DNA of 64,000 nt from Tridacna crocea (taxonomy: Eukaryota; Mollusca; Bivalvia; Cardiida; Cardiidae), in assembly GCA_943736015.1 (NCBI GenBank), contig OX031071.1:13674119-13738118 (forward strand), given 5' to 3'. This document shows positions 1 to 64,000 of this stretch, piece by piece. Every line of letters begins with the position of its first letter. The first letter of the stretch is position 1. Under the pieces are notes generated by a model that was not told the DNA's origin, searched no databases, and saw only the letters and a program-made list of their open reading frames with translations. The position numbers and the translations under genes were made by a program.

Positions 1-219
1 CTTTACCCCATAAGGCATTTCTACAGTACCTCTAATTGACCCTAAATAACAGCAAGGACGAAGCCACTTTTTATGTGTATAGGGCACCTTTTGATAGCAT
101 AGAAAACATTGTGACAAAAAGTGAAATTGCTCGTCAGGAGCAATTTCCCCTTTTGCCACAATGTTTTCCAAAGGCTCCTACAAGCAATGCATTGAAACAA
201 GTATCTATGGAGTAAAGGG
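1..219 (+). mobile_element. TTAA MITE, subfamily D (left end cut by window)
   Basis: The D arm (CCCCATAAGGCATTTCTA), the core GAAATTGCTCGTCAGGAGC palindrome and the right end GGAGTAAAGGG are followed by TTAA at 220-223. It appears inserted into another MITE that continues at 220. Confidence 0.85.
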
Positions 220-395
220 TTAACAACCCTATGAAAGAAGTCTTTTTAAAACATTGTGGGAAAAGGAGAAAATGCTTGTAACCAGGATTTCCCTCCTTTT
301 CCCCCTAAATTTTCTATCCTATCAAAGATAGAAATCATCATTTTGAGCAAAGACCAAATTGTTGTTTGCAACTGTTTTCAGTTCAGAATAGTCTA
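220..395 (+). mobile_element. degraded TTAA MITE, right part, host of the copy at 1-219
   Basis: It begins at the internal site TTAACAACCCTATGAAAG and continues through a damaged core (AAAACATTGTGGGAAAAGG). The left end must lie before the window. Confidence 0.6.
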
Positions 396-461
396 AAATT
401 TTGTCAACAGGCTTTACCCTTTCAGCTCCATCCAGGAAAAACTTTGGGCTTTTTACAGCCG

Positions 462-535
462 GCATCAATCAAGATCAGACTGCACAGCATATGCAATCTG
501 ATCTTAGATCTATATTGTCAACTTACTGTCTCCTT
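462..535. repeat. dispersed AGATCAGACTGCAC repeat, palindromic copy
   Basis: AAGATCAGACTGCAC is followed by its near-complement (GCAATCTGATCTT). Other copies are at 5930-5997, 8325-8395, 19062-19170 and 22386-22440. The purpose is unknown; it is part of a larger old repeat that ends with a TCTGCAAAAGCCAG-type tail. Confidence 0.6.
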
Positions 536-597
536 CCTGGGTGGAACAGTTTACTCTTCATTGCACAGAAAAATTACTGTTCCTTGCAGTATTTTTA

Positions 598-972
598 ACT
601 CGTTACCACACAATCCTGGCCTTAACTCATTACCAAACAACAAAATTTTAGGTTTGTCCAAATTGGAAGCATTTGCAGACGATAAAATGAAAGAGGCATA
701 AAGTTTGAAATATGTTTTGTGAAAGGTAGAAAACATTGTGGGAAAAGGAAAAAATGCTGGTTACCAGCATTTTCCCCTTTTCCCAAATTTTTTTTTCTAA
801 AGGCTTCTTTCTCAGGGGCTTCAAAAGTAGTGATTGTGTTGTAATGGGTTACAACTCTGATGAAGAAGCCTTTATCAAAACCATTTTGGGAAAAGGAGAA
901 AATGCTTGAAACCAGCATTTTCTCCTTTTCCCACAATGTTTTTTACCCTTTAAAACAAAAAGTTCATGAAAA
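598..972 (+). mobile_element. TTAA MITE split by a nested MITE
   Basis: The outer copy is 598-621 plus 853-972. It starts CTCGTTACCACACAATCCTGG, is interrupted at its internal TTAA, and resumes at ACTCTGATGAAGAAGCC with its own core hairpin. Its right end is missing. Confidence 0.7.
626..848 (-). mobile_element. TTAA MITE nested in the copy at 598-972
   Basis: TTAA at 622-625 and a mutated TTAC at 849-852 flank a reverse-orientation copy (ACAACAAAATTTTAGG end first) with core GGTTACC. Confidence 0.85.
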
Positions 973-1196
973 ACCCTTTGCCACACAATGATGACTTTTA
1001 ACACCTCTGAGGAAGAAGCCTTTGGAAAACATTGTGGGAAAAGGAGAAAATGCTGGTAACCAGCATTTTCTCCTTTTCCCACAAAGTTTTCTACCCTATC
1101 AAAGCATTAAGACTGCACCATTTCACCTACTTTGGAACTTTGTCTGCAAGTGCTGTCAATTTGGATTGGTCTAAAATTTTGCTGTGTGGTAACAGG
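973..1196 (+). mobile_element. TTAA MITE, forward orientation
   Basis: The ends are CCCTTTGCCACACAATG and TGTGTGGTAACAGG, with TTAA at 1197-1200. The core palindrome at about 1026-1092 is nearly perfect. Confidence 0.85.
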
Positions 1197-1200
1197 TTAA

Positions 1201-1799
1201 AGTATCACTTGATTAATTGTATGCAAATGCTTTCCATTTCTACAAGGCTAAATTGAGTCATCTGGTAAAGAGTTAAAAGCCCTCAGGGCTAGAGACATTA
1301 AAACTTACAATTGTGTGGTAAAGGGACGACATAAGTACCTGTCATTGGCTTAAACAAATCAGTTTCAAAGCATGATGAATCACATGATTATCAGGTCCAG
1401 AAGTGCTCATGATAAGACTTTTTTTTCAACCAGGTAACAAGGGAGGCTATGCCAAAGCTATCGTCATAGGTGAAGTTTCTGCAAGAAAAAATCTATCAGT
1501 TACTAGGAATTTATTGCAAATAATATAGGACTGGTTGGTTGGTTGGTTGATTGTTTGGTTGGTTAGTTGTCCTGTTTTTTTATTGGTTGGCTGGCTGGAT
1601 GGCTGGCTGGCTTGTTGGTTGGTTGGTTGGCTTGTTGGTTGGCTGGTTTGCTGGCTAGCAGGCTGGTGGATTGCTTGCCACTTTTAACAGTATTTTGGTC
1701 AGACAATTTAAACCTGTTTCCTTGGTTACATATTATAGTACTAGGCCAGGACTCTGAACTTTTTTGTCAACAGACACTCTGATAGTCACATAAACCCTA
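1201..1799. repeat. GGTT/GGCT-rich low-complexity tract in otherwise featureless sequence
   Basis: 1531-1680 is an imperfect tetranucleotide array of GGTT, GGCT and related units. Nothing else was recognised in this stretch. Confidence 0.7.
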
Positions 1800-1803
1800 T
1801 TAA

Positions 1804-2024
1804 CTCATTACCAAACAACAAAATTTTAGGTTTGCCCAAATCGAAAGCACTTGCAGACAGCAAAATAAAAGTGACTGAAAATTTGAAATTTGTTGTGTGA
1901 AGGGTAGAAAACATTGTGGGAAAAGGAGAAAATGCTGGTTACCAATACTTTCTCCTTTTCCCACAATGTTTTCTATAGCCATTTTTCACAATATTGTCAA
2001 ATTGGGGAAAGTGTGGTAAATGGG
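1804..2024 (-). mobile_element. TTAA MITE, first of a pair sharing one TTAA
   Basis: TTAA at 1800-1803 and 2025-2028. Left part in reverse orientation, core GGTTACC, right arm of the core damaged (CCAATACTTTC). Confidence 0.85.
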
Positions 2025-2028
2025 TTAA

Positions 2029-2230
2029 CTCTTTACCAAACAAGCTCTGGTTTGTAAGAACCTGAGATAGAAGCCTTTTGAAAACATTGTCAGCATTTTC
2101 TCCTTTGCCCACAATGTTTTCCACCCTGCTGGAAACCAATTTCAATTTTTGAGTTACACTTATAATTACTTTGTCGTCTGCAAGTGCTTTTAATTTCGAT
2201 GAGTCTAAAATTATGTTGTTTGGTAACGAG
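2029..2230 (+). mobile_element. TTAA MITE abutting the preceding copy
   Basis: It shares the TTAA at 2025-2028 with its neighbour and ends at TTAA 2231-2234. The left arm of the core hairpin is deleted (GAAAACATTGT joins CAGCATTTTC). Confidence 0.8.
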
Positions 2231-2440
2231 TTAAGATAGCTCAGATTCTGGATTGTGAGGTAAAGAATAAGAGTGTCTTCTTGTGAGCCTCTTATCAACT
2301 GCACAGACCAAAGTTATGACAGTTCAAACTAAATTACCAGTATGTATGAGCATGCAGAACAAGAGTACTGTTCTATAAGAAGCTAGTTTTACCAGGGTCC
2401 ATATTTATTCAACCATTCTTAAGAACGTTCTTTGTCTTGA

Positions 2441-2661: not shown

Positions 2662-2684
2662 TTAATCTTCAAGATTTTCTGATT

Positions 2685-4718: not shown

Positions 4719-5393
4719 TGACCGTACAACAAATTTATTATATTGCAAAGTTACATCCTTTCAAAGCATGTTAAGTGAAATTTTCCTGTTTTATAATCTT
4801 ACGAATCAAGTATGCTGATGAAATAGGAATTCCCTTCAGAGTGTCCCAATTCAATGAAAACTGACGTCACTGGAAACTGACGTCACTAAAACGTGCAGTT
4901 TGGTGCAAAAACGTGCAGTCTGCAGATCGATAGATGCCCCCATTTTGGATGTTGTGTTGCACGTGTAGTGATGTTTATGGGGCACTCAAAAGGGAAACTG
5001 GTTTTACATGGTTTTTGTCAGGGTACATGATATACATTATTATATATGTTCATGGCATGTTAAGCAATCAGATCATCATGAGAAATTTCCTTGCAGTATA
5101 ATAATATCAGATGTTACTTTGACTTTAAAATCATTAACGCTAATCTTGCTGTGAAATAAGTGAAATAAAACTTTTAAGCCGATAGCAAAAACTTAAATCT
5201 TCCTATTTCAGAGGAAAATTTCAGGAAAATATGTCCTTATCAGATAACATAGCACTACTATCATTCTGCACAGTCTGACCTTGATCTATTGTGAAATATG
5301 GGAAATGAAACTTTTAAGCTGTAGGCAAAAATTTAAATCTTGCTATTTCAAAGGAAAATTTCAGGAAAATATGTCCTTATCAGATCTTGTTAA
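4719..5393. repeat. old dispersed repeat with two direct partial copies
   Basis: 5155-5245 and 5278-5388 are direct copies (AAACTTTTAAGC ... TTTCAGGAAAATATGTCCTT). Similar sequence recurs near 5900 and 8240. 4719-5150 holds nothing recognised. Confidence 0.6.
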
Positions 5394-5615
5394 CTCATTA
5401 CCAAACGACAATATTTTAGGCTCGTCCAAATCGAAAGCATTTGCAGACGACAAAATAAAAGTGACTGAAAATTTGAAATTTGTTTTGTGAAGGGTAGAAA
5501 ACATTGTGGGAACAGGAGAAAATGCTGGTTACCAACCATTTTCTCCTTTTCCCACAATGTTTTCTAAAGGCTTCTTTCTCAGGGGTGTCAAAAGTAGGGA
5601 TTGTGTGGCAATGGG
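5394..5615 (-). mobile_element. TTAA MITE, reverse, 222 bp
   Basis: TTAA at 5390-5393 and 5616-5619. Core GGTTACC with minor mismatch in the right arm (CCAACCATTTTC). Confidence 0.9.
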
Positions 5616-5675
5616 TTAAGTAACTAAAATGATATTTTCAATCTTACAGTAAAATCACAATTATTGCCGTTTTAA

Positions 5676-5888
5676 CCTTTTCCCAAATGACAGATTTTAG
5701 ACTGTCCCAAACTCAAAGTGTTTGCAGATGACGACTTTGAATTTGATGAGAAAGTTTTCCAATAGGCTAGAAAACACTGTGGGAAAAGGAGAAATTGCTC
5801 GTTACGAGCAATTTCTCCTTTTCCCACAGTGTTTTCTAAAGACTTGTACTGCAGACACATAAAAACCGGGGCTTGTTAGGGAAAGGAG
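5676..5888 (-). mobile_element. TTAA MITE, subfamily C, reverse
   Basis: TTAA at 5672-5675 and 5889-5892. Core GAAATTGCTCGTTACGAGC; arms carry the C-type GCAGATGACGACTTTGAATT segment. Confidence 0.88.
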
Positions 5889-5929
5889 TTAAAGTTATAT
5901 TTTCAGGAATAAAATCTCCTTATCAAGAA

Positions 5930-6303: not shown

Positions 6304-6477
6304 AGTCTTCATATGATTACGAAGCCAGATTCCAGAACATCAAATTTGTCTAACAAACATATAAATCATGATGTAATATGTCTGTTGACATACGAAGATT
6401 TGCAAAAAGCAAAAGGTTTAGACACGGGTTAGCTTACGCAAGCTAAACTGGGTCAGTTCTGTTCGCAAAGGCATTAA

Positions 6478-6699
6478 CCCTTTACCAAATGACAATATTT
6501 TAGACTGGTCCAAATTGAAGGCACTTGCAGACGACAAAACAAACATAACTCAAATATTGAAATTTGTTTCCAGCAGGGTAGAAAACATTGTGGGGAAAAG
6601 GAGAAAATGCTGGTAACCAGCATTTTCTCCTTTTCCCACAATGTTTTCAAAAGGCCTCTATCTCAGGGTCATAAAAACCAGGGATTGTTTGGTAATGGG
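6478..6699 (-). mobile_element. TTAA MITE with a matching empty site at 3191
   Basis: TTAA at 6474-6477 and 6700-6703; 222 bp. The arms are in reverse orientation but the core reads GGTAACC, the opposite of most reverse copies. Confidence 0.93.
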
Positions 6700-7572
6700 T
6701 TAAACCCCATTCCACAGAGCATGGGTCATATCTAAGTAAATTTGACTTTGACTTATCTAAACTTTTCAAACATTTCTAACAGTTGTTATGGTTCTACCAC
6801 GTTTCTTTTTGTTGGGTAGGAGAAGGTACAAGGGAGGTCAATCGTACAATATCAAAATTTGAAATTGGATGAGTTTTCTCCCTTAGAACATGAAAACGTT
6901 AAGTAGTACTACAGTTGAGGTTATTGCGAGTTGGGACCGAACATTTACTGACACATAACGGATCGGTGCAGTTGCTTTCTGATCAGAATAACAAACCATA
7001 TTTGGTGACGACTGATGTAATATTTTTCATCCAGGTATCATACATAGTAAAATAATTTATAGATCTATTATTGAATTCATTATCGCTATTAAAGCAGCTA
7101 GTATGGGACAAATGGCAGTAGATTGAATACACAAGATAATTTAAAACTGCACATCCACTATTATCGACTAAGCCAACATAAGTAGCGTTAGTAATTGGTC
7201 TGCATAGAGCTTCATAGGTAGATCTTACCTTGAATGATTGAAAAAGTCGGTTTTAAAACAATGGCGGTAATTTAAGTAAGGGAGACTACCGTTGGTTAAC
7301 ATATGTTTTGAAATATTTAATAAATTTTTGCCTAGTTGCACTATTTTGTGTCAATGTATTATTAAGTTTTTTTTTATCATAATTGGATACATTTGCGTTA
7401 ATTCTGGTCGAATATTACAGCTCTACTGATATTAACACGTATGTTCAGTCTGCATCACCAAGATAATGATGTAACGGTTGTTCGGCAACTTAGAATTACA
7501 AGGGAGGAAACTCTAGTTAATCATGAAAACGAGTAAGAGTTTTCTCCCTTAGACTATAAAGATAAATCTTAA

Positions 7573-7808
7573 CTCATTTCAAAACGGTATTATTTTAGGC
7601 TTGTCCAAATCGAACGCATACAATTTTGCAGACGACAAAATAAAAGTGACTGAAACTTTGATTTGTGTGTGTGTGTGTGTTTGAAGAGTAGAAAACATTG
7701 TGGGAAAAGGAGAAAATGCTGGTTACCAGCATTTTCTTCTTGTCCCACAATGTTTTCTAAAGGCTTCTTTCTCAGGGTCGTCAAAAGCAGGGATTGTGTG
7801 GTAATGGG
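7573..7808 (-). mobile_element. TTAA MITE containing a (GT)n tract
   Basis: TTAA at 7569-7572 and 7809-7812. A GT run of about 20 bp at 7661-7681 replaces part of the left arm. Core GGTTACC. Confidence 0.88.
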
Positions 7809-8324
7809 TTAAATTTCAGATTTAGCAACGTGCTTGGAAAGCCAAATCAAAACAAAGGACAAACGAGTACTTTGTGTAAGGTATACCTCTATACAAAATC
7901 ACAGACTTATCCAATTGAAAGCTTTTGCAGACAACAAAGAAAATGTGATTGTGCAAAAAGGAGAAAATGCTGTTTTAACTTATTTTTTCTCCTTTTCCTA
8001 CAATGTTTTTAATTCTACTGTGGTATTGCTTGTTTAAAAGAGCTGTTTTTGCTTCTATCGAACTCTTTCATTTACGATTTTGACAATGCATCTTTGCCTG
8101 ACACAGCAACAGCTCTAACTCTAAACAATGACTTCTGTGCTTCCTTTGAGGCATAGTTGGGTTATGAACATTACTGGATCATGTGGATGTTTCTTTGACT
8201 TTTGTGTCAATAACCCTCATGATATTGAATATGTTAAATGAAATATTTTAGCTGATATCAAGATAGCAAATTTGCTATTTTTAAGATATTTTTAAGGGAA
8301 AATATCTCCTTACTGGACTTTGTA

Positions 8325-9449: not shown

Positions 9450-9490
9450 TTAAACTTTTAACTAAAGAACAAAATTTTACACTTGTTTAA

Positions 9491-9711
9491 CCCATTACCA
9501 CACAATCCCTACTTTTGACGCCCCTGAGAAAGAAGCCTTCAGAAAACATTGTGGGAAAAGGAGAAAATGCTGGTAACCAGCATTTTCTCCTTTTCCCACA
9601 ATGTTTTCTACCCTCCACAAAACAAATTTCGAATTTTCAGTTACTTTTATTTTGTCGTCTGCAAATGCTCTCGATTTGGACCAGTCTAAAATATTGTTGT
9701 TTGGTAATGGG
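9491..9711 (+). mobile_element. TTAA MITE, near-consensus, 221 bp
   Basis: TTAA at 9487-9490 and 9712-9715. CCCATTACCACACAATCCC end first, core GGTAACC perfect: a good reference copy of the main subfamily. Confidence 0.94.
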
Positions 9712-9715
9712 TTAA

Positions 9716-10180: not shown

Positions 10181-10390
10181 ATTTACTTTGAACTTCAAAT
10201 ATTTTGACAATATCCTTTGACTGACCAGTTATTGAATATGAAAAAAAAAAGGTTTCCTTTCAGGAAATAAAACCTACAATATTGCACTGACTCAAGATTT
10301 TTTGTTGACTGCAGCTTTTTTCTAGAATTTTCACATACAAGGATCACCCGACTCCCTCCAAATGAATACATAGATGGCTTTAAACTTTAA

Positions 10391-10612
10391 CGCTTTACCG
10401 AACAACAAAATTTTAGACTTCTCCAAATTGAAAACACTTACAGCCGACAAAATAAATGTGGCTCAAAAATTGAAGTTTGTTTTGGAAAGGCTAGAAAACA
10501 TTGTGGGAAAAGGAGAAAATGCTGGTTACCAGCATTTTTTCCTTCTCCTACAATGTTTTCAAAAGGCTTCTTTCTCAGGGTTGTTAAAAGTCGGGATTGT
10601 GTGGTAAAGAGT
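10391..10612 (-). mobile_element. TTAA MITE, reverse, 222 bp
   Basis: TTAA at 10387-10390 and 10613-10616. Core GGTTACC. Confidence 0.9.
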
Positions 10613-10674
10613 TTAACTGCAAAGAACATTTTAGAAAATTTAGATTTCCAAATTTAATCGAAACTGGGAATAAA

Positions 10675-11470: not shown

Positions 11471-11859
11471 CATATCTGAGCTTGGATTGTCGAAGTTTCA
11501 CTCTAACCTATGATCAGTGATTTATTAGCAGTAGGATTTTTCTCGGAAAATGAAGAAGTCAGAATTGGTTGGAAAACAAGGTCATCTAATTTTAAAACTG
11601 ACACAACAATAAAAGTAACTCTATGAACAAACTGAACAAGCATGTCACGATAAAAAATTGAACATTTTATTACAATATATAGTAAGAATATTTCATGACC
11701 TATTTCTAAATTCATGAGCAGTGTTTTTGTCAGAACTGGAAAAAAGTCTAGATGTGTCACAAAGAGTAAAATACCCCCACCAAGTGCTTCGATAGTGAAT
11801 ACAGGAGAACAAAATGTACTTCAATTATACACATCTATGTAGTTCAAACCGTATGTTAA

Positions 11860-12080
11860 CTCTTTACCACTCGACAAAACTTCAGACTACTTCAAATTGA
11901 AAGCATCTGCAGACGACAAAATAAAGCTGACTGAAAAATTGAAATTTGATCTGGGAATGGTGGAAAACACTGTGGGAAAAGGAGAAAATGCTGGTTACCA
12001 GCATTTTCTCCTTTTCCTACAGTGTTTTCAAATGGCTTCTTTCTCGGGGGTGTCAAAAATAGGGATTGTGTGGTAATGGG
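11860..12080 (-). mobile_element. TTAA MITE, reverse, 221 bp
   Basis: TTAA at 11856-11859 and 12081-12084. The hairpin uses ACACTGTGGG paired with CCTACAGTGT, so both arms share the C-for-T change. Confidence 0.9.
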
Positions 12081-12213
12081 TTAAGTTATACACCTCTAAG
12101 TCTAAACTCAAAGGAAGATAAGTCAAGACTAATACTTTCTACCTTAGAAAATGCTCCAGTTTATGTATTTGGCATTTTGGCATTGAAAGTAAAAAGATCT
12201 AAGCTGCTTTTGA

Positions 12214-12437: not shown

Positions 12438-12504
12438 TTGATACAATGACATCAAAGCTCACTGAGGAGTTTGCATCACAAAGGTACCAATGCCTAATTC
12501 TTAA

Positions 12505-12726
12505 CTTATAACCACACAACAAAATTTTTGGCTTGTCCAAATCAAAAGGATTTGCAGACGACAAAGTAAAAAGTGACTGAAAATTGGACATTTGTTTTGT
12601 GAAGGGTAGAAAACATTGTGGGAAAAGGAGAAAATGCTGGTTACCAGCATTTTCTCCTTTTCCCACAATGTTTTCTAAAGGCTTCTTTTTCAGGGGCATC
12701 AAAAGTAGGGATTGAGTAGTAATGGG
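12505..12726 (-). mobile_element. TTAA MITE with exact empty site at 16555
   Basis: TTAA at 12501-12504 and 12727-12730; 222 bp. Flanks GCCTAATTC and AGCAGGCTGCCTCC are contiguous around a single TTAA at 16555-16558. Confidence 0.96.
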
Positions 12727-12730
12727 TTAA

Positions 12731-13775: not shown

Positions 13776-14015
13776 GTTACAGATCACTACCTACATGGCA
13801 ACAATGCTTCCGTTCTTCAGCAAAACATTTGTTGCAATTGTTCTACTTAATTCTCTGCGAGGCATTTCAAATTAACCTCAATAAATATTTCAATCAACAT
13901 TAAGACATTCCCCTCCTTATCTGAACCTCTGCAAAAATGTGATAACCATACAAACTTCCAGGAAAGGTAATTCAGCACAATACAATAAAATGATACATGT
14001 CTGCTACATCATTAA

Positions 14016-14235
14016 CCCTTTACCACACAATCCCTACTTTTTACAAACTCAGAAAAGAAGCCTTTTGAAAACATGGTGGGAAAAGGAGAAAATGCTGGTA
14101 ACCAGCATTTTCTCCTTTTTCCACAGTATTTTCTACCTTTTCCAAAACAAATTCAATTTCTGAGCCCCATTTCTTTTGTCGTTTGCAAATGCTTTCAATT
14201 TGGACAAGTCTAGAATTTAATCGTTTGGTAAAGGG
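14016..14235 (+). mobile_element. TTAA MITE, forward, 220 bp
   Basis: TTAA at 14012-14015 and 14236-14239. Core GGTAACC. 14240-14528 after it shows nothing recognised. Confidence 0.92.
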
Positions 14236-14532
14236 TTAAATACATGTATCTCTTACACAAGAGAATTATAGCCTGTAACAACAGCCTTGCAGTCCATGGT
14301 CGAATCCTTATAGGTCATGAGTGGTTTGTCACTTACAGGGCTATAATGTATGACACTAGAGGAGCCGAGATCATTTACAATAATACAACAGTGAAGTAAC
14401 TTTGTATTCAATAACACCATGTTTTCACCTTCAATTGTTTCATGTCATCAAGTCTTTGCTACACGATAGAAACATGCATTAGACCTGTCTGAATTGAATG
14501 CATTTGCAAATCACTGAGTAAATGTTACTTAA

Positions 14533-15293: not shown

Positions 15294-15587
15294 TCAACAA
15301 GCAATCCCGAACTTGGGTCCTTTGCCTATAAGAATATCCCCAAAGGGCTCTGACTGAGATACTGTGATGACACTGTGCTTTTTCAACACTAACAAAGTGT
15401 AGAACTTGGAAGTCACTTGTTTCCTGTTCAGTTTCTTAGCCATGTCCTTAAAGCTTAGTTCATCTGTGTATTTAAATCCTGAATCTAGTGTATGCTGCAT
15501 CTGGGCTGTTCGTTTTGTCCATCTGGTTTCTTCTTCCTCAGCATTCTGTGGCATTACCTCTCCACCTTCTACATCTTCACCAAATGC
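15294..15587 (-). CDS. RAD21: RAD21 last coding exon, SMC1-binding winged helix (residues 561-657)
   Basis: The acceptor is ATCCACAG; the stop TGA is at 15296-15294. It encodes [19 protein letters not shown] and [17 protein letters not shown] and ends [10 protein letters not shown], a close fit to the RAD21 C-terminus (winged helix that caps the SMC1 head). Confidence 0.96.
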   Translation of the reverse strand, partial: AFGEDVEGGEVMPQNAEEEETRWTKRTAQMQHTLDSGFKYTDELSFKDMAKKLNRKQVTSKFYTLLVLKKHSVITVSQSEPFGDILIGKGPKFGIAC

Positions 15588-18500
15588 CTGTGGATACAAC
15601 AATATTTGTAAGTAACTTTCCCACACCACAGTAATTAACCCTTTACCACAAAATCCCAACTTTAAACCCTTTAGGAAGAATCATTTTGAAAACATTGTGA
15701 GTAAAGGAGAAAATGCTGGTTACCAATATTTTCTCCTTTTCTTACAATGTTTTTTGCTCAAAGTCAACTTTTAAAGTTTTAGCAGAATTTGTCATCTTTA
15801 AATGCTTTAGAATCAGACAACTCCATAATTTCGTTAACTCATTACCACACAATCCCTACTTTTGACGCCCTAGGAAAAAAGCCTTTTGAAAACACTGTGG
15901 GAAAAAGAGAAAATGCTGGTAACCAGCATTTTCTCCATTTCCCCAGTGTTTTCTACCCTTCCCAGACCAAATTTTAATTTTTCAATCACCTTTATTTTGT
16001 TGCCTGCAAATGCTTTTATTTGAACCAGTCTAAAACTTTCTAATGTGGTACAGAGTTAAGTGGCAAAGAATTGAAATACAATGCATAAAATTTTAGGAAG
16101 AAACAGAAATGCTCTTGGAAAACATGTGTGCAAGTAGATCTGATAGCTTGTACATCCAATCAGCCATGCTGCTGCACCATTTTCTAGATTAAAAGTGTTT
16201 GATCAATGCCTTTGTCAAGATCATTTCAGTGATCTTGTACTGCAGCTCATTGTAAAGAGTTTCAGAAAATATTTGATCAGCAAAAAAAGCCTCTTCCTTT
16301 TCAAAAAATGGATTGTGTTCTATAGTGTATGGTGTTCAATTCTGTTTTCAACTTGATTTCACTTACATTGCAGTAGCCAGTGCACCTACCCATTCTTTTT
16401 GGAAGAAACTACTACTAGTAATTCAGACTATTCTTTCTAAACCACTAGCTGCTTTCCCACATAGTATTTGGCAAAAAAATTGATCAAGGGTGAGAGAGCA
16501 ATGATTCAAAGCTCACTGAGGAGTTTGCATCACAAAGGTACCAATGCCTAATTCTTAAAGCAGGCTGCCTCCAGTAAACCTGTGTCATCACAAAATGACA
16601 ATGACTAAAAAACAGTCCCCTGAAAAAAATGGCTGAAATGGCAACTAACTGGCAATCCCCACTAGATAAAAAACATCCAGAATAAAGTTTATACTTACAA
16701 CAGGTCCTGCCGAGGGTGGTCCAACTGAAGGTGGTCCTACAGATTGTGGACCTACAGAGAACGGAGCAATGGAAGGAGGCCCATCCTCTTCAAACTGTGG
16801 ATGAATAAGACTAGGTACTTCTGGTATTTCAATCTGTGGATTACTAACAGACTGGCCAAATACATCTGAAACATTGGGATCCATCGCTGATGTGTTTTGT
16901 GGAGTGGGTGGGGCTGGTAGGGAAGTTCGGGTAATGTTTTGTTCATCACTTCTGGTTGATCTCCTGGAAGCCTCGAGTATTGTTGGTTCTTCGACAATGG
17001 TGCTTATCTCATCTCTGATGTTTGTGATTGTGCTCATTCCCATCCTGGATTTTTCTGTTGATAAAATAAGGTTTCAGATTTCGAAGTATCTCAAGTAAAA
17101 ATTTGATAGTTCTAGTATCGAAAGGTACAAGTCAATTCCTAGAATCGACATCCCCCCAAATGTGGAGTGGGGTCAACTAGACCCCCAACGTTAAAATTTG
17201 GGTCCTCTTGGTAGAGGCCCATTAGATAAAGCTACATACAAAATTTGGTAGCCCTAGGCCTTGTGGCTATGTACCAGTAGATTATTAAAGTTACCCTATA
17301 TAAGCCCATGTAAAACTTGTGATACCCCGGGACAGGGCCAAATTTGACCCCAGGGTTATAATTTGGGCAACCTTGGTAGAGACCCCCTAAAGCTACATGC
17401 AAAATTTGACAGCTCTAGCCCTCATGGCTAGAGGGGCACCCTTGCAGGGGTCCACTAGATAAAGCTACATGCCAAATTTGGTAGCCCAAGGCCCTATGGC
17501 TAGGTCGAGGAAGAATTTTAAAAGTTCTCCCTATACAGGGACAGGGCCAAATTTGACCCCAGGGCTATAATTTGGGCACCCTTGGTACAGACCCACTAGA
17601 AAAAGCTACATGCAAAATTTGACAGCTCTAGCCCTTACGGCTAGAGGGGCACCCTTGGCAGAGGTCCACTAGATAAAGCTATATGCCAAATTTGGTAGCC
17701 CTAGGCCCTATGGCTAGGTCGAGGAAGAATTTTAAAGTTCTCCCTAAATAAGCCCATGTAAAACTTGTGACTCCCCGAGTTGGGGCCAATTTTGACCCCA
17801 GGGCTATAATTTGAAGAAACTTGGCAGAGGTCCACTACGTAAAGCTACGTGCCAAATTTGGTAGCCTTAGGTCTTACGGTTTCAGACCAGAAGATTTTCA
17901 AAATTTTTCAGTTTTGTTGCCATGGCAACCAGAGTTTTTAAAGGAATTAAATTCTTTCAACAAATTCTGAAGAGGACCATGGCAGGATCATTTCTGTTAA
18001 GTTTCAACAAAATTGGCTTGGTAGTTTCAGAGAACATGTTCTAAAAATAAAGTTAACACACTGACGGACGGATGCACGGACGGACAGACGCAACAGGCCA
18101 TGACATAAGCCCTCAGGCCTTCTGCCAGTGGAGCGAAAAATTGAAATTTGATTTGAGGTTGGTAAAAAACGTTGTGGGAAAAGGAGAAAATGCTGGTTAC
18201 TAGCATTTTCTCCTCTTCCCACAATGTTTTCAAAGGGTTTTTTTCTCAGGGTGGTTGAAAGTGGGGATTGTTAGGTAAAGTGATAAAGCATCCTTTTGTC
18301 AGAGCATGGCTCCAATATATGATGGCACTGCCTGTACTTCTCTTACCTGTAGCAGATCTGTCAATTTCTCGAGATACATCTGTAGCATCCAGTTCTAGTC
18401 TTTCTTCATCTGCGTCTATCTCTTCCATCTGTTTGGTCAACAGATTTCTCTTGTACACCTGCATAATTGAAGTGTAATGGCCATGTATCAAATGTTTACC

Positions 18501-44169: not shown

Positions 44170-44709
44170 AGGTGGGTATTTAAAATTTTTACATCTCACC
44201 AAATTAAAAAACATATATACCACTAAAATTTATATGAAAAAATAATACAAATCATCAATAAGTAAGAGCCATAAAATTACAAAAAAAAAATTTTTTGATG
44301 GTGTTCCCTTAAAAGGCTACGTAGCCTCTTAAGGTATTTTTAGATTTCCCGCCAAAAATCAATAAAGCATTTTGGGAATGTCAAGTCACTGGCACGTGAA
44401 TTACAACGCTTAAATTCCATTACACAACAAACATGTAATAATTATTTTCCATAATGTCTTCTTCGGACCCTATATTTGAAACTTTATCTGTGTATTCCTG
44501 TATATAAATGAGCGAATTGATCATCTAAAAATAGAAAGTGTCTCCCGTTGGTGTCAACCTGGGCCGTAGTAAATCTCTAATTTCTCGTGCTGTCGGATGG
44601 TTTTCGACTACTGTGGTTTTATGAAGGCAAATTAAAAGGCTTAGGGAGTATAAAGATGATTTTTTTGCATCTTTTTAAAATTTTCGTCCCAAGATCTGAA
44701 GGGCCACCT
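44170..44709. mobile_element. TTAA element with AGGTGG termini (Kolobok-like), second copy
   Basis: TTAA at 44166-44169 and 44710-44713. Matches 33541-34077 along its length. Its right part is included in the tandem duplication that follows. Confidence 0.75.
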
Positions 44710-44968
44710 TTAATGCAGAACCTGTAAAATCTATTGCAGCAGTAATGAATGATTAAAGACCAGTGCTCTCAATAAGCGGACGTCGACGTGTATTACGTCC
44801 AAATTTTTAGAAAAAACGTCGGCATTTTCCAAGTCGGACGTTTTTTTAACGTCCATATTATGACAAAAACGTCCGAGAATTTCAACCCGGACGTTTTTTT
44901 TAATGCACAAAGGGTTTGACGCGTGTGGAAAACTAGGATAACCTCCATTCAATGTAAGGAAGGCGCTA
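44279..44968. repeat. 689-bp tandem duplication, unit 1
   Basis: Differs from unit 2 at only a handful of positions (for example CAACGC/CAATGC, AAGCGG/AAGCAG). Includes the right part of the Kolobok-like element and an ACGTCC/GGACGT-rich segment. Confidence 0.93.
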
Positions 44969-45657
44969 CAAAAAAAAATTTTTTTGATGGTGTTCCCTTA
45001 AAAGGCTACGTAGCCTCTTAAGGTATTTTTAGATTTCCCGCCAAAAATCAATAAAGCATTTTGGGAATGTCAAGTCACTGGCACGTGAATTACAATGCTT
45101 AAATTCCATTACACAACAAACATGTAATAATTATTTTCCATAATGTCTTCTTCGGACCCTATATTTGAAACTTTATCTGTGTATTCCTGTATATAAATGA
45201 GCGAATTGATCATCTAAAAATAGAAAGTGTCTCCCGTTGGTGTCAACCTGGGCCGTAGTAAATCTCTAATTTCTCGTGCTGTCGGATGGTTTTCGACTAC
45301 TGTGGTTTTATGAAGGCAAATTAAAAGGCTTAGGGAGTATAAAGATGATTTTTTTGCATCTTTTTAGAATTTTCGTCCCAAGATCTGAAGGGCCACCTTT
45401 AATGCAGAACCTGTAAAATCTATTGCAGCAGTAATGAATGATTAAAGACCAGTGCTCTCAATAAGCAGACGTCGACGTGTATTACGTCCAAATTTTTAGA
45501 AAAAACGTCGGCATTTTCCAAGTCGGACGTTTTTTTAACGTCCATATTATGACAAAAACGTCCGAGAATTTCAACCCGGACGTTTTTTTTAATGCACAAA
45601 GGGTTTGACGCGTGTGGAAAACTAGGATAACCTCCATTCAATGTAAGGAAGGCGCTT
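44969..45657. repeat. 689-bp tandem duplication, unit 2
   Basis: The junction is at the A/T run ACAAAAAAAAATTTTTTTG following GGAAGGCGCT. A recent event, or an assembly duplication. Confidence 0.93.
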
Positions 45658-52770: not shown

Positions 52771-52918
52771 TGTATCAACAAGTTTCTTCAAAATCCTACT
52801 CCCAAAGAAGGCTTCCAGTAACTTTACTTTTTGTAAAGTACAGAAAAATGGTTTCAGTTCACACAAATACTCCTCTGTTGCAGTTGCAAACCATGGTTAG
52901 GCTGTTGCAGGTATTTAA

Positions 52919-53140
52919 CCCTTTATCCCATAAGGTATTTCTATGGTTATCTCTTATGGACCCTAAATAACAGCAAGGATTAAGCAGTTTCTTATGTGTA
53001 TATGACACCTTTTGCTAGCATAGAGAACATTGTGACAAAAGGTGAAATTGCTCGTCACGAGCAATTTCACCTTTTGCCACTATGTTTTCCAAAGGTTCCT
53101 ACAAGTAATGCGTAGAAATGAGTATCTATGGAGTAAAGGG
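52919..53140 (+). mobile_element. TTAA MITE, subfamily D, complete, 222 bp
   Basis: TTAA at 52915-52918 and 53141-53144. Core GCTCGTCACGAGC perfectly paired. Confidence 0.92.
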
Positions 53141-53169
53141 TTAATACAGAATTATGTAGTCCCAGTTAA

Positions 53170-54290: not shown

Positions 54291-54623
54291 CAAATGTTCG
54301 AATGCCTCTTTTAATGTATTGCAGGCCATAAATGTTTCAGCAATTTAGAAGCAACTGGTTACTGCTTGTCATAATGCTGTCAAAATTGACTGTACAGCAA
54401 GGCGGAAAAAATAATCTGCAGGTGATAATGCTGTAAATATTGAAAAGTTGAGTGATGTTTTTATCAGATTTGTTGCAATGTCATAATATAAATTTATTGG
54501 TGTCAAAGTCCAAACCTCCATTGTGGTCACACAAATCAACTCTTTTACTGTATCCTTTTCACCATGTGATCTATACACTCCACTGTAGCATTGATTCAGT
54601 AGCAAAGAGGTTGGAACACTTAA

Positions 54624-54844
54624 CCCTTTACCAAACAATCAGTGGTTTTTATGACCCTCAGTAAGAGGCCTTTTGAAAACATTGTGGGAAAAGGAGAAAA
54701 TGCTGGTAACCAGCATTTTCTCCCTTTCCCACAATGTTTTCTACCCTTCCCAAAACAAATGCCAAGTGTTGAGTCACTTTTATTTTGTCATCTGCAAATG
54801 CTTTCGATTTGGACAAGTCTAAAATTTTGTTGTTTGGTAATGAG
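54624..54844 (+). mobile_element. TTAA MITE, forward, 221 bp
   Basis: TTAA at 54620-54623 and 54845-54848; core GGTAACC perfect. First of a chain of three. Confidence 0.93.
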
Positions 54845-54848
54845 TTAA

Positions 54849-55651: not shown

Positions 55652-55710
55652 CATTGATGTCTTCGTAAAGGGTATTCAGTTTATCTTGATATGTTCTGTT
55701 TATTAATTAA

Positions 55711-55930
55711 CCCTTTCCCAAACAAGCCCTGGTCTTTACGTGTCTGCAGTGAAAGTCTTTTGAAAACATTGTGGGAAAAGGAGAAATTGCTCATAACGAG
55801 CCATTTCTCTTTTTCCCACAGTGTTTTCTACTCTTTATGAGAACTTTCTGCCATTTTCTCCAAATCTAAAATTGTTGTCTGCAAAGTATTTCGAATCGGA
55901 AGAGTCTAAAATTTCTTGTTTGGGAAAGGG
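55711..55930 (+). mobile_element. TTAA MITE, subfamily C, 220 bp
   Basis: TTAA at 55707-55710 and 55931-55934. Core GCTCATAACGAGC. An arm fragment of another copy follows at 55961-56012. Confidence 0.9.
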
Positions 55931-56049
55931 TTAAATTAAAAGTTAGGGGCCATAGATTTTAAATTAATGTCTGCAAATGCTTTGAATTTTGACAAGTCTA
56001 AGATTTCGTTCTGTGCAGGATTAACACTGCACAGAAAACTAACATTTCA

Positions 56050-57289: not shown

Positions 57290-57670
57290 AACAGCTGTTT
57301 GAAACATTGGAAAAAGAAGAAAATGCTGGTAACCAGCATTTTCTTCCTTTCCCACAATTTTTCTATCCATTTAACCCATTACCAAACGACACTATTTTAG
57401 ACTGGTCCAAATTGAAAACATTTGCAGACGACATTATTAAAGTGACTGAAAATTTGAAATTTGTTTTGTGAAGGGTAGAAAACACTGTGGGAAAAGGAGA
57501 AAATGCTGGTTACCAGCATTTTCTACTTTTCCCACAGTGTTTTCAAAAGGCCTTTTTCTCAGGGGGAGTCAAAAGTAGGGATTGTGTGGTAATGGGTTAA
57601 ACACTTATAGTTCTTTTGTTGTCTGCAAATGGTGGATAAATTTGGTAAAAGATCGTCATTTTGTAAAGTG
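57290..57670 (+). mobile_element. TTAA MITE split by a nested MITE
   Basis: Left piece 57290-57370 with core GGTAACC and TTTTTCTATCCAT; right piece 57601-57670 with TTGTTGTCTGCAAATGG ... TTTTGTAAAGTG to TTAA 57671-57674. Confidence 0.75.
57375..57596 (-). mobile_element. TTAA MITE nested in the copy at 57290-57670
   Basis: TTAA at 57371-57374 and 57597-57600, 222 bp; core GGTTACC with ACACTGTGGG arms. Confidence 0.92.
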
Positions 57671-57757: not shown

Positions 57758-58100
57758 ACCACACAATCCTGAGCTTAACTCATTACCAAACGACAAAATT
57801 TTAGACTGGTTCAAATTGAAAGCATTTGCAGGCGACAAAATAAAGGTAACTGAAAAATTGAAATTTGATATGGGAAGGGTAGAAAACACTGTGGGAAAAG
57901 GAGAAAATGCTGGTTACCAGCATTTTCTCCTTTTCCCTCAGTGTTTTTAAAAGGCTTCTTTCTCAGGGGCGTCAAAAGTAGGGATTGTGTGGTAATGGGT
58001 TAAACGACCCTCTCAAATCGGTTTTGGAAACACTGTGAGTATAGGAGAAAATGCTGGAAGCCTGCTATGTTTTCAAAAGCCTTTCAGGGTCCTTAAAGAG
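57758..58100 (+). mobile_element. TTAA MITE split by a nested MITE at its internal TTAA
   Basis: TTTACCACACAATCCTGAGC is interrupted and resumes at ACGACCCTCTC with a decayed core, to TTAA 58101-58104. Confidence 0.75.
57780..57999 (-). mobile_element. TTAA MITE nested in the copy at 57758-58100
   Basis: TTAA at 57776-57779 and 58000-58003, 220 bp; core GGTTACC with paired ACACTGTGGG / CCTCAGTGT arms. Confidence 0.93.
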
Positions 58101-58881: not shown

Positions 58882-59071
58882 TCAATCAGCAATTGCTAAA
58901 CATGGACTAAAATTACCATTTGCTATTTGTTACAGCTGATATATACTACTCAAAATTTGCTAGGGATCACCATATTAGATTCACTGTACTTTCTGTATAA
59001 TATATGGTTGTAGTTTGTACAATATGTTACATTGCCACGCTGATTAATAAAATCACCATTGGTATCTTTAA

Positions 59072-59292
59072 CTCTTTACCACACGAGAAAATTTTGGACT
59101 GGTCCAAATTGAAAGCATTTGCAGACGACAAAATAAAGGTGACTGAAAAATAGAATTTTTTTCTGGGAAGGGTAGAAAACACTGTTGGAAAAGGAGAAAA
59201 TGCTGGTTACCAGCATTTTCTCCTTTTCCAACAGTGTTTTCAAAAGGCTTCTTTCTCAGGGGCGTCAAAAGTAGGGATTGAGTGGTAATGGG
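59072..59292 (-). mobile_element. TTAA MITE absent from copy A
   Basis: TTAA at 59068-59071 and 59293-59296, 221 bp; core GGTTACC, arms ACACTGTTGG / CCAACAGTGT. Copy A has one TTAA (22953-22956) at this place. Confidence 0.94.
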
Positions 59293-59296
59293 TTAA

Positions 59297-60452: not shown

Positions 60453-60476
60453 GTCGGTGCACTGATATTGTCTTAA

Positions 60477-60696
60477 CTCTTTACCCCATATGGCATTTCT
60501 ATGGCATCTCTAATTTACCCTAAATAACAGCAAGGATGAACCATTTCTCATGTGTAAATGACACCTTTTTATAGCATAGAAAACATTGTGACAAAAGGTG
60601 AAATTGCTCGTCACGAGCAATTTCACCTCTTGCCACAATATTTTCCAAAGGCTTGTACCAGCAATGTATAGAAATGGGTATCTATGGAGTAAAGGG
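60477..60696 (+). mobile_element. TTAA MITE, subfamily D, complete, 220 bp
   Basis: TTAA at 60473-60476 and 60697-60700. Core GCTCGTCACGAGC. Followed by a right-end fragment of another copy at 60701-60776. Confidence 0.92.
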
Positions 60697-61000
60697 TTAA
60701 GTTTTTGTCCCACATGTATCAAATGGACTTCCTCCTCAGGTTGGTTAGAACATGAGATTGTGGGGTAAAGGGTCAAACACTGACACTGCTTTGGGTTTTG
60801 TTCCAGATAAGTAAACCTATAAGGTGCTCAAAAAGACTTGTTTATCGGCAGATAAAAGAACTATTTCAAGATTAGGACTTTTTTGTACAGGTATCTTTCA
60901 AATTATAGATAACTTTGGAAATGTCCCAGTTTATAGGGAAAATCAACATATGTTCCTGGTATGATTGAGAAACCATTGCAGTAGAGAAATTGCTAATTAA

Positions 61001-61189: not shown

Positions 61190-61806
61190 TTATTCTCCGC
61201 GTTACAGCATATAGCGGAGAATTGTTGTCTCAATCGAAGTGACCAAAACCGGTTATGCAAGGTTTGGTCAGTGGGTTCTAATAATAGACGAGTATTGGAT
61301 ACGTGGTCATTTCTAGCGAGACCTCCACACTGGCAACATCGTCTTTTCGTTCAAATTCAATTTCTGCGTATTAAAGAGTATATTTCTTTGTAGACGTTTA
61401 TATGTTGAATAGATTTCTTTTTTTGTACAAGGCGTAAGATCCGTGCGCCTGATATTCTAGGAATAGCCTGAGATTCATACCGATCACCGGTCTTGGATCA
61501 TGCATGTTACGGACACACGTTTCCTCTCAAAGAGGGGTTTTTCGTGGACGGCCAGTATTCCGAGGATGAATATCTTATACATGTGAACATATTTAAAGTT
61601 CGGCTGGATTAGGGAACATGATAATTTTTGCTTTTTAGCTTGCATTTTGTCAAATGTTATTCGCCTGTCCTACCTTGCCAGAATTATACACGTCTCGCCT
61701 GCGCAAAACAGTTGTGGTGTTTTGTTTTGTCTGTGAAAGTATTGAGACGGTTAAAGGATTGATGATAGTCATAGACTTTCATTCTTTTCTAAAAGCAGAC
61801 TGTACT
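61190..61806. other. 617 bp of non-repetitive sequence, nothing recognised
   Basis: Contains a short hairpin (TTCTCCGCG ... AGCGGAGAA at 61193-61221) and CCTCTCAAAGAGGGG at about 61530. No convincing reading frame or RNA gene. Confidence 0.45.
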
Positions 61807-61810
61807 TTAA

Positions 61811-62091
61811 CCCTTTACCCCATAAGGCATTTCTATGGTATCTCTAATTGGCGCTAAATAACAGCAAGGATGAAGCTGTTTCTTCATTGTATATGACACC
61901 TTTTGATAGCATAGAAAATATTGTGGCAAAAGGTGAAATTGCTCGTCACGAGCAATTTCACCTTTTGTCACAATGTTTTCTATGCTATAAAAAGGTGTCA
62001 TTTACACATGAGAAATGGTTCATCCTTGCTGTTATTTAGGGTAAATTAGAGATGCCATAGTCTTTAAAAGTCCTCATTGTGTGGTAAAGGG
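61811..62091 (+). mobile_element. chimeric D MITE: two left halves head to head plus an A-type end
   Basis: Left D half (CCCCATAAGGCATTTCTATG ... GATAGCATAGAAAATATTG) is followed by its inverse up to GAGATGCCATAG, then AAAGTCCTCATTGTGTGG-TAAAGGG. TTAA at 61807-61810 and 62092-62095. Confidence 0.83.
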
Positions 62092-62095
62092 TTAA

Positions 62096-62320
62096 AAACC
62101 TTTACCACACAATGAGGACTTTTAACAACCCTGAGGAAGAGGCCTGTTGAAGAAAATGTTGGAAAAGGAAATAAATGCTGGTAACCAGTATTTTCCTCCT
62201 TTTTCCCACAATGTTTTCTGCCCTTCCAAAATAAGATTTCAATGTTTGAGTCTTATTTATTTTGTCATCTGCAATTGCTTTGAATTTGGACTAGTCTAAA
62301 ATTTTGTTGTTTGGTAAAGA
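62096..62320 (+). mobile_element. TTAA MITE, forward, sharing TTAA with the chimera
   Basis: TTAA at 62092-62095 and 62321-62324. Its left end (CCTTTACCACACAATGAGGA) is the inverse of the chimera's right end. Confidence 0.86.
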
Positions 62321-62392
62321 TTAAAAAAAAAAACCCTGCAGGAAAGCATGGATAGGTGCATTGGCTGCAGTGATCTAACTAAAGTCATTTAA

Positions 62393-62614
62393 CCCATTAC
62401 CGCACAATCCCTACTTTTGACGCCCCTGAGAAAGAAGACTTTTGAAAACACTGTGGGAAAAGGAGAAAATGCTGGTAACCAGCATTTTCTCCTTTTCCCA
62501 CAGTGTTTTCTACCCTTCCCAGAACAAATTTCTATTTTTCAGTCACCTTTTTTTTTGTCGTCTGCAAATGCTTTCAATTTGGACCAGTCTAAAGTTTTCT
62601 CGTGTGGTAATGAG
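62393..62614 (+). mobile_element. TTAA MITE, forward, 222 bp
   Basis: TTAA at 62389-62392 and 62615-62618; core GGTAACC, arms ACACTGTGGG / CCCACAGTGT. Confidence 0.94.
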
Positions 62615-62618
62615 TTAA

Positions 62619-62840
62619 CCCTTTCCCAAACAAGCCCTTGTTTTTACGTGTCTGCAGAACAAGTCTTTTGAAAACACTGTGGGAAAAGGAGAAATTGCTC
62701 GTAACGAGCAATTTCTCCTTTTCCCACAGTGTTTTCTACCCATTTGGAGAACTCTCTGCCATTTTTATCAAAATTTGAAATTGTTGTCTGCAAACTCTTT
62801 GAGTTTGGAAGGGTCTAAAATTTGTCATTTGGGAAATGGT
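62619..62840 (+). mobile_element. subfamily C MITE sharing TTAA with the preceding copy
   Basis: TTAA at 62615-62618 and 62841-62844, 222 bp; perfect core GCTCGTAACGAGC. Confidence 0.93.
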
Positions 62841-63021
62841 TTAAGAAAAAGATGTTAGACTTCAGTTAACGGTCAATGATTCATAACAGAAATATGTATC
62901 CAGTGACAATCCTTTTACCTGGGCAGAATAAGTGTGCCAAAGAACAGGTCCACTTCCTGAACAAAAGGACTGTATAGGTTATAAATAAACATGATGTATT
63001 CCATTTACTACAAAACTTTAC

Positions 63022-63229
63022 CCTTTACCAAGTTATCAAGTGTTTGTGTACGGTTTTGGAAGCATTGTGGAAGAGGAAAAAATGTTTGTAACCAGTATTT
63101 TTTACTTTTCGTACAATGTTATCTGGCCTTTCAAACACAATGAAGACTTCTTTAGCTAAAATTTGATTTTTAATCTGTAAATATTTCAAGATACATTAAC
63201 TCTAAAATTGTTCATATGGTACAGTATTG
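63022..63229 (+). mobile_element. degraded TTAA MITE
   Basis: CCCTTTACCAAGTTATC ... GTAACCAGTATTTTTTAC ... CATATGGTACAGTATTG; ends and core decayed. Confidence 0.65.
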
Positions 63230-63365
63230 ATTGTGCAATAGTGAGAGAAACCAGCTTTTAATCTTATAAAGGTAGTACATAATGTGTTAGTCTACTGCCA
63301 AACATGGATGCTATCTAAGTGTTTTAAAGTATTTTATTGAGTATAAACTCTTAAAAGACAATTAA

Positions 63366-63569
63366 CCCTTTCCCAAACAAGCCCCGGGTTTTTATGTGTC
63401 TGCAGTAAAAGTCTTTTGAAAACACTGTGGGAAAAGGAACAATTTCTCCTTTTCCCACAGTGTTTTCTACCCTGTTTGAGAACTCTCTGGCATTGTCTCC
63501 GATTCTAAAATTGTGGTCTGCAAACTCTTTTGGTTTGGAAGAGTGCAAAATTCGTAGTTTGGGAAAGGG
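63366..63569 (+). mobile_element. subfamily C MITE with shortened hairpin
   Basis: TTAA at 63362-63365 and 63570-63573, 204 bp. GGGAAAAGGA joins CAATTTCTCCTTTTCCC; about 18 bp of the palindrome tip are gone. Confidence 0.88.
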
Positions 63570-63596
63570 TTAAAGATCTTTTGGCTGACACTGCAG

Positions 63597-63775
63597 ATTG
63601 ATGATCAGATGGTGCAGAATGTCTGATCTAAGGTCTATGATCAGATGGCGCAGAATGTCTGATCTTCTGTCTACGATCAGATGGCACAGAATGTCTGATC
63701 TTCTTTTACAATCATGTGGCGCAGAATGTCTGATCTTCTGTCTATGATCAGATGGCGCAGAATGTCTGAGCTTTG
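63597..63775. repeat. minisatellite, about 37-bp unit, five copies
   Basis: Unit GATCAGATGGCGCAGAATGT followed by CTGATCTTCTGTCTAT, with variants. The unit resembles the dispersed AGATCAGAC repeat. The window then ends in MITE debris at 63880-63970. Confidence 0.85.
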
Positions 63776-64000
63776 TCTATACTGTCCCATGTTTTGTTGG
63801 AAGTTTTGTTTGGGAAAAAAAATCTTAAAATATTTTTACTCCAAAAAGGACACAAATTTAGAGTTCTAATGATCTTTTTTAATTGGTAGGAAGAAATGGG
63901 ATGGAGGGAAGGAGGGAGAAGCATTGCTGTGCTTACTCCTTTCCCCACAATGTTTTCGAAAGGTATTAACACCTTTAGATATAAAAGGTGTTCATACAGA

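Follow-up and report, generated by a model that had tools for sequence, protein, structure and literature searches.

An abundant family of TTAA-flanked MITEs with piggyBac-like ends carries a central palindrome that appears constrained among its source lineages

INTRODUCTION

Miniature inverted-repeat transposable elements (MITEs) related to piggyBac have been described in Acropora corals, where the elements named CMITEs have TTAA duplications and CC[C/T]T ends (PMC2872659). According to the accessible text of that report, CMITE families have different terminal inverted repeats (TIRs) and one internal region of unknown origin that is more conserved than the TIRs, and one family was linked to the piggyBac element AmiPB1 by its TIRs and by weak adjacent similarity (PMC2872659). 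CMITEs are about 100 bp long, with about 1,600 copies in A. millepora; their describers speculated that the internal region aids transposition and warned of ascertainment bias, and the words palindrome and hairpin do not occur in the part of the text available to us (PMC2872659). Here we describe a family of MITEs with a palindrome in mid-element, found in a stretch of 64,000 bases (the window; contig C16:13674119-13738118 of assembly G000, which holds 1.05 Gb in 31 contigs), and the autonomous elements that probably mobilize it.

Both piggyBac and piggyBat use TTAA targets. As far as the accessible portion of a study of these transposases describes, these bind subterminal sites that are palindromic, using a dimer of C-terminal domains, subterminal motifs are repeated, and the palindromes, 19 bp in piggyBac and imperfect in piggyBat, both lie near the ends (PMC11707139). 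The T2-MITEs of Xenopus, which belong with Kolobok, are described in the available text as prevalent, long-lived MITEs with TTAA and AGGRR termini (PMC6004289), and the REPINs of bacteria as palindromic miniature mobile DNA (PMC3116915).

RESULTS

A profile search with nhmmer (E <= 1e-3) assigned 20,154 of the 64,000 bases, or 31.5% of the window, to the MITE family. This is more than the quarter proposed in the original prediction, which was made from the letters of the window and had described one family of palindromic TTAA elements in about 75 copies. The family is real, but the count was exceeded, as 108 pieces remained after overlap removal (59 on the + strand and 49 on the - strand), 57 of them near-complete. 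Near-complete copies are 188-244 bp long including the TTAAs, with 47 of the 57 between 222 and 232 bp; TTAA is present at both ends in 33, while the rest are without it at one or both ends. The expected CCC-type ends, flanking TTAA and central palindrome were all recovered: matches to a TTAA-CCC end with up to 2 mismatches number 64 on the left and 73 on the right, compared with 4-12 and 0-10 in ten shuffles. The termini read CYCWTT in inverted orientation, and many are thus CTC, not strict CC[C/T]. By our own count of the listing, 58 of the 63 near-perfect palindromes in the window belong to the family.

A complete A-type element consists of TTAA, a 5' end of the form C(C/T)C(A/T)TTACC, a left flank of ~90 bp, the palindrome, a right flank of ~50 bp, the inverted end and TTAA. 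The palindrome is 67 bp long, with two 33-bp arms and one central base. Three types can be distinguished by ends and palindrome: type A has CATTACC or CTTTACC ends and a GCTGG stem, type B has CTTTCCC ends and a GCTCG stem, and type C has CTTTACCCC / CTTTACTCC ends, GACAAAAGGTGAAATTGCTCG in the palindrome and a left flank that could not be aligned to that of A. One complete copy (57371-57600), folded as a DNA strand, gave -56.8 kcal/mol compared with a shuffle mean of -22.3 (z -10.7). The idea that every intact copy would fold into a perfect hairpin did not hold, since only 11 of 59 gapless A-model palindromes are perfect over the 33-bp arms and the mean number of mismatches is 3.75.

How does variation in the palindrome compare with variation elsewhere in the element? 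Our constraint set comprised 63 A-model copies (65 near-complete copies at >=140 bits, less 2 dropped for gaps), with the C type left out and loci L021, L024, L027, L007 and L008 excluded as duplicates or overlapping families. Private variants, those found in a single copy, occur at 0.84 per site in the palindrome, 0.62 in the inner flank and 0.71 in the terminal repeats. For variants common to at least 4 copies, the corresponding values are 0.24, 1.04 and 0.50, so that shared variants are ~4 times rarer per site in the palindrome than in the inner flank (permutation p = 1e-4). The contrast between shared and private variants has a Fisher odds ratio of 5.9 (p = 3.3e-9) and persists in low-gap columns, at thresholds of 2, 3, 4 and 6, and with and without the GCTCG copies (odds ratios 2.6-9.4). 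On a fixed tree, change along internal branches sums to 1.30-1.34 in the flank and to 0.13-0.20 in the palindrome, 6.5 to 10 times less. Young copies, those with at most 1 arm mismatch (21 of 63), are 29% divergent in the flanks and 6.1% in the palindrome.

Since private variants are not depleted in the palindrome, landed copies do not appear to mutate more slowly there. These statistics, drawn from sequence, demonstrate an apparent constraint on the palindrome among the source lineages. Ascertainment bias is argued against both by the lack of depletion of private palindrome variants and by the construction of the profile, which was seeded from pairs of ends and not from the palindrome.

The arms also tend to change together. 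Among 69 palindromes from the window, 66 of them distinct, 56 cells carry changes on both sides, compared with 15.1 after shuffling; none of 500 shuffles reached 56, and slid versions gave 13-23. Pairing is retained in 91.0% of cells, compared with 87.7% in shuffles. The paired changes present in at least 2 copies are T7C, G11T, A25T, G30C and G12A, with G13C and A20T in the C type; A25T and G30C travel together, and the main differences between subfamilies affect both arms together. Of about 100 cores listed from the whole genome, 3 have both inner pairs changed together and 7 are changed on one side.

We next consider which transposase could move these elements. A genome search that scores only the best candidates returned 118 matches to PF13843 (piggyBac), and none of the 118 lies in the window, as expected from the earlier remark that the window holds no transposase. 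Twenty of the 118 loci were read with 3-kb flanks, together with further stretches. One element, E15 (contig C15), is 99.64% identical over 7.2 kb to its copy on contig C3, has TTAA at both ends and contains a 492-aa frame matching PF13843. Its protein occurs in five copies at a rounded identity of 100%, the query included, which suggests that this piggyBac was recently active. A second element, E7, encodes a transposase 80% identical to that of E15 and has TTAA-flanked ends of the CTTTCCC type (left TTAACTCTTTCCCACACAATCCCGACTTTTTACGACCCC, right TTAACTCTTTCCCACACAGACAGG).

The ends of these two elements resemble those of the MITEs. In E15 the left end reads TTAACCCATTACCGTTCAATAACGCCTTTTGACGCCCCT and the right end, taken in reverse, reads TTAACTCATTACCACTCAG. 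On the MITE side, A2 has the reversed right end TTAACCCATTACCACACAATCCCTACTTTTGACGCCCCT, and A has the left end TTAACTC(A/T)TTACCA. Given these sequences, the A consensus has a CCC/CTC asymmetry that agrees with E15. The A2 right end matches the left ends of E15 and E7 at 28 of the 36 bases that follow TTAA, compared with a mean of 9.0 in 2,557 other TTAA ends, and the only ties at 28 come from L029 and L030, where the end in question is that same left end of E15. No other unmasked end exceeds 23 of 36 for any of the three MITE end types. E7 is the closest match for both A1 and B, at 27 and 25 of 36, higher than any background end (maxima 23 and 21), and the right ends of E15 and E7 match MITE right ends weakly (11-16 of 36). 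The A-type profile also matches the left ends of E7 (E = 1.7e-5) and E15 (E = 8.5e-4). Of the MITE end types, CATTACC is seen in E15 and CTTTCCC in E7, and the suggestion that the elements are piggyBac-mobilized MITEs gains autonomous PF13843 elements with homologous ends. No autonomous parent from another superfamily was found, and the partner elements are piggyBac. By eye, CTTTTGACGCCCCT-like motifs are repeated at the E15 left end, and one is retained in the MITE right end.

Other piggyBac loci have different ends (CCCTTTATATAC, CCCTTTCAGCGC/CCCTTTCAGTGC, CCCTAGTCATGC, CCCATTTATGCC and CCCTATCCTCCAC), a comparison limited to loci with readable ends and thus excluding L009, L012 and L028. 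Among loci examined for autonomous relatives with A1 or C ends, L033 has a 24-base match to the E15 right end, and L034 and L035 have none. A further relative of E15, L032 (contig C13), is 71-75% identical to it; its right end follows that of E7 for 267 bases at 96% identity, beyond which the match stops. MITEs have inserted into both E15 and E7, near the 3' ends and elsewhere, and MITE insertions are also seen in the E15-family loci L020, L021, L024 and L027.

The MITEs have moved, with duplication of a TTAA target. For 47 sites, the two flanks were joined through one TTAA and looked for in the window and in the loci; MITE-to-MITE and self matches were set aside. The MITE at L012:5942-6168 is inserted in a dispersed repeat, and each of the five unoccupied copies of that repeat that were displayed (80-90% identity over 135-152 bases) has a single TTAA. 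The same holds for MITE 12501-12730, whose empty counterpart at 16499-16595 has one TTAA (93% over 98 bases), and for the counterpart (75%) of MITE 6474-6703; the counterpart (78%) of MITE 7569-7812 shows no TTAA. L010:6545-6773 is an insertion into another MITE, relatives of which are without TTAA at that position. Where a lack of TTAA duplication would have spoken against the proposed mode of insertion, empty sites have one TTAA and occupied sites two. In seven adjacent pairs, one TTAA is common to both neighbors.

The family is abundant throughout the genome. The pattern TTAACYCWTTACCANACRACAAWATTTTAG occurs exactly at 43,427 places and the 35-bp palindrome center, with five positions left free, at 198,302; the reversed control for the former and the control for the latter gave none. 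The window contains 24 intact centers, or 375 per Mb compared with 189 per Mb genome-wide, and so has a higher density than the genome as a whole. Scaling from the window (7 and 24 matches) gives a rough estimate of 350,000-470,000 near-complete copies, about 12-16% of the genome. Its roughness shows in 20 loci centered on piggyBac, where only 10 centers fall in 142 kb (70 per Mb), and in a sample of 22 loci, where the MITE share is 9.8%.

A 72-codon frame runs through the MITE. When that of MITE 9487-9715 was used as a query, 4,987 database proteins matched, of which the best 120 were listed. We rejected a coding role for the frame, which contains a stop in 54 of 63 copies and has no clear codon-position signal (flank divergence 0.189, 0.175 and 0.202 at the three positions). 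We therefore take the protein matches to be translated MITE copies; such translations may contaminate public protein predictions. One of the 120 listed matches to the read-through carries PF01776 (ribosomal L22e).

Copies are unevenly spread over the window, with MITE-free stretches at about 42.0-52.6 kb and about 23.5-27.4 kb. Near-complete A-type copies lie at 5390-5619 (+; CATTACC left end), 6474-6703 (+), 7569-7812 (+), 9487-9715 (-; perfect palindrome at 9541-9609), 21619-21842 (-), 32266-32500 (+), 40208-40436 (+) and 57775-58003 (+). The B type is represented by near-complete copies at 5672-5890 (+), with CTTTCCC-like ends, a GCTCG stem and a perfect palindrome at 5768-5838, at 29676-29903 (-), at 32044-32269 (+), which has a TTAA in common with the A-type copy that follows, at 55707-55934 (-) and at 62615-62841 (-), where a perfect palindrome (62670-62736) carries the paired changes T7C, A25T and G30C; a further B-type MITE, at 63362-63573 (-), has lost the loop region and retains an intact outer stem. 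Near-complete C-type copies are found at 28090-28317 (+), with CCCTTTACCCC / GAGTAAAGGG ends and GACAAAAGGTGAAATTGCTCG in a palindrome arm, 52915-53144 (+) and 60473-60700 (+).

The other near-complete copies include 1800-2028 (+), which has TTAA at both ends, one of them common with the next copy, a MITE at 2025-2234 (-) that also has TTAA at both ends and in which one palindrome arm is partly deleted. Others lie at 10387-10613 (+), 11856-12084 (+; paired T7C), 12501-12730 (+; the copy with the empty site noted above), 14012-14239 (-), 15834-16059 (-), 28344-28570 (-), 32950-33179 (-; perfect palindrome at 33005-33071), 34572-34799 (+), which has CTTTCCC ends but a GCTGG palindrome, and 37529-37756 (-). 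A MITE at 38084-38271 (+) has most of its palindrome deleted. Toward the right end of the window are near-complete copies at 54620-54848 (-; TTAA common with the next piece), 57371-57600 (+; the folded copy), 59068-59296 (+), with a perfect palindrome (59175-59241) and the two paired changes T7C and G11T, and 62389-62618 (-), with a perfect palindrome (62444-62510) and paired T7C. A hybrid foldback at 61807-62095 (+) consists of a C-type left half, the palindrome, an inverted C-type left half and then an A-type right end; its halves are 90.5% alike over 148 aligned bases, which suggests a template switch or recombination at the palindrome.

Among neighboring sequences, a C-terminal exon of RAD21/REC8 lies at 15294-15680 (-; Pfam E = 3.6e-15); RAD21 is a cohesin subunit, and this exon leads us to regard the host DNA as nuclear DNA of an animal. 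Two open frames, 16645-17073 (-) and 19270-19758 (-), look RAD21-like by eye, without a Pfam match, so that MITEs are probably located in RAD21 introns. No known RNA was detected in the window by Rfam at gathering thresholds, and a tRNA scan was also empty. Two long near-palindromes of other sequence, at 2666-2773 and 30394-30545 (arms of 53 and 74 bp), are possibly other foldback elements. Tandem repeats occupy 17329-17746 (period 214, 2 copies) and 63601-63780 (period 36/71). The dispersed repeat that provides the empty site for one MITE occurs at 44263-44412, 44967-45101 and 33637-33774, with more copies in L012, L013, L022, L026 and L027.

DISCUSSION

We consider it quite probable that the MITEs are nonautonomous piggyBac elements moved by transposases of the E15/E7 lineage and that the palindrome acts in cis as a part of the mobile unit. 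In such a scheme, transposases of the E15/E7 type encoded in the same genome would mobilize the MITEs, and a copy would spread only, or better, if its palindrome could still pair. Most likely the palindrome would act at the DNA level during transposition, helping to bring the two ends together either by extruding as a hairpin or cruciform or by serving as an extended binding site with dyad symmetry. The candidates for this step are DNA extruded as a hairpin, a long dyad site to which a host factor or a dimeric transposase would bind, and an RNA hairpin. Copies with damaged palindromes exist (2025-2234, 38084-38271 and 63362-63573), and the damage may have come before or after insertion. A broader and tentative idea, one that we lean against, is that any piggyBac-like transposase in this genome can use the palindrome as a hairpin or dyad module acting in cis, that selection maintains its pairing and not only its sequence, and that the module would let different terminal repeats become hyper-amplifying MITEs. 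If so, a eukaryotic cut-and-paste transposon would here contain a DNA element selected for its structure.

Several observations weigh against the main proposal. Terminal branches of the fixed tree are also about half as long in the palindrome as in the flanks (3.3-3.5 vs 6.7). We read this gap as source divergence that the sample does not resolve, and some constraint after landing may be mixed in. Two measures of pairing are borderline: 13 pairs have a two-sided change compared with 9.1 in shuffles (20 of 500 reach it), and 39 further pair types are seen compared with 34.7 (28 of 500). Paired-change events are few, at least about five independent ones by our own count, and one-sided variants recur, as at position 11, where G>A is found 2 times on the left only, 9 times on the right only and never paired. 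End and stem types are not strictly linked in the constraint set: copies with CATTACC (17) and TTTACC (9) carry GCTGG, TTTCCC right ends occur with GCTGG (6) and with GCTCG (6), and the other 25 copies fall into other classes. E7 has CTC at both ends, unlike the CTC/CCC asymmetry of the A consensus. The profile detected no counterpart of the A-type left 90 bp or of the palindrome at the E15 and E7 ends, and in the loci read no autonomous relative with CTTTACC (A1) or C-type ends was found. We also rejected an origin of the palindrome in the interior of an autonomous element, as the palindromes within E15 and E7 sit in apparent later MITE insertions.

Could the palindrome be a passive passenger, its low variation reflecting few sources rather than selection? 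There are few subfamilies, and many copies inherit identical paired changes. However, shared variation per site is ~4 times higher in the inner flanks of the same copies, which means that the sources did diverge, and the difference between flanks and palindrome is already present in the young copies (29% vs 6.1% in 21 of 63); we regard the passenger explanation as improbable. Another possibility, which we judge unlikely, is that the arms are kept alike, in the absence of selection, by template switching within the palindrome when the element is replicated or transposed. Such correction would account for changes that are paired between the arms, and the hybrid at 61807-62095 resembles a switch at the palindrome. 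Yet homogenization of resident copies can be rejected, as these are uncorrected, with a mean of 3.75 mismatches per 33 pairs. By our reasoning, correction alone is also a poor explanation of the low rate of change, because it would fix paired changes at about the flank rate; the neutral expectation would be ~1 shared variant per arm site, as in the flanks, and roughly 0.1-0.2 is seen. The better reading thus appears to be that spreading copies are selected for palindrome arms that match, and partly for one particular palindrome, and correction possibly helps.

It is also conceivable, though we doubt it, that selection acts on RNA, with the transcribed palindrome forming a long hairpin that protects the element or serves the host through small RNA, editing or chromatin. 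The strand folds far better than shuffles, albeit with DNA parameters, and copies adjoin the RAD21 exon (15294-15680) and probably sit in RAD21 introns. Against this stand the empty Rfam search of the window and the distribution of the constraint, which is seen in spreading lineages, with private mutations undepleted, and is easier to reconcile with a function in spreading than with one that every resident copy performs. Finally, the elements might belong to Kolobok, another superfamily that uses TTAA (PMC6004289). As given in the available text, Kolobok termini are RR and those of T2-MITEs AGGRR (PMC6004289), whereas the MITEs described here have CYCWTT. Since the autonomous elements with matching ends carry PF13843, although Kolobok transposases were not searched for, we consider a Kolobok affiliation highly improbable.

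What allows some MITEs to multiply to hundreds of thousands of copies is an open question, and it becomes testable in a single genome that has intact transposase genes, several MITE subfamilies whose ends match and an internal module in which selection may be read from sequence. The contrast between shared and private variants would apply to other MITE families as well.

How do these elements compare with known systems? In titles and abstract openings, a coverage that leaves out most subscription papers, we found no eukaryotic piggyBac MITE reported to have a palindrome with paired changes. In our reading, what is new here is that the palindrome behaves as a selected part, with paired changes in its arms; a piggyBac MITE with a conserved internal region was already known from the coral CMITEs. 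The likeness to CMITEs, as far as the accessible text describes them, extends to TTAA, CC[C/T]T-like ends and a conserved internal region, although here only the palindrome is conserved and not the whole interior. The elements also differ in size, core and number: ~225 bp, a palindrome with paired changes and 198,302 center matches, compared with ~100 bp and ~1,600 copies. T2-MITEs, from what is available of their description, differ in their AGGRR termini and in superfamily, and the CYCWTT termini here follow neither AGGRR nor RR. REPINs are also present in high copy number and are moved by a class of enzyme other than piggyBac. They are, in the portion of the literature available, likewise palindromic miniature mobile DNA, but their hosts are bacteria. 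The palindromes of piggyBac and piggyBat, on the evidence of the accessible text, are short and lie near the ends, whereas the MITEs described here have one palindrome, of 67 bp, in the middle of the element.

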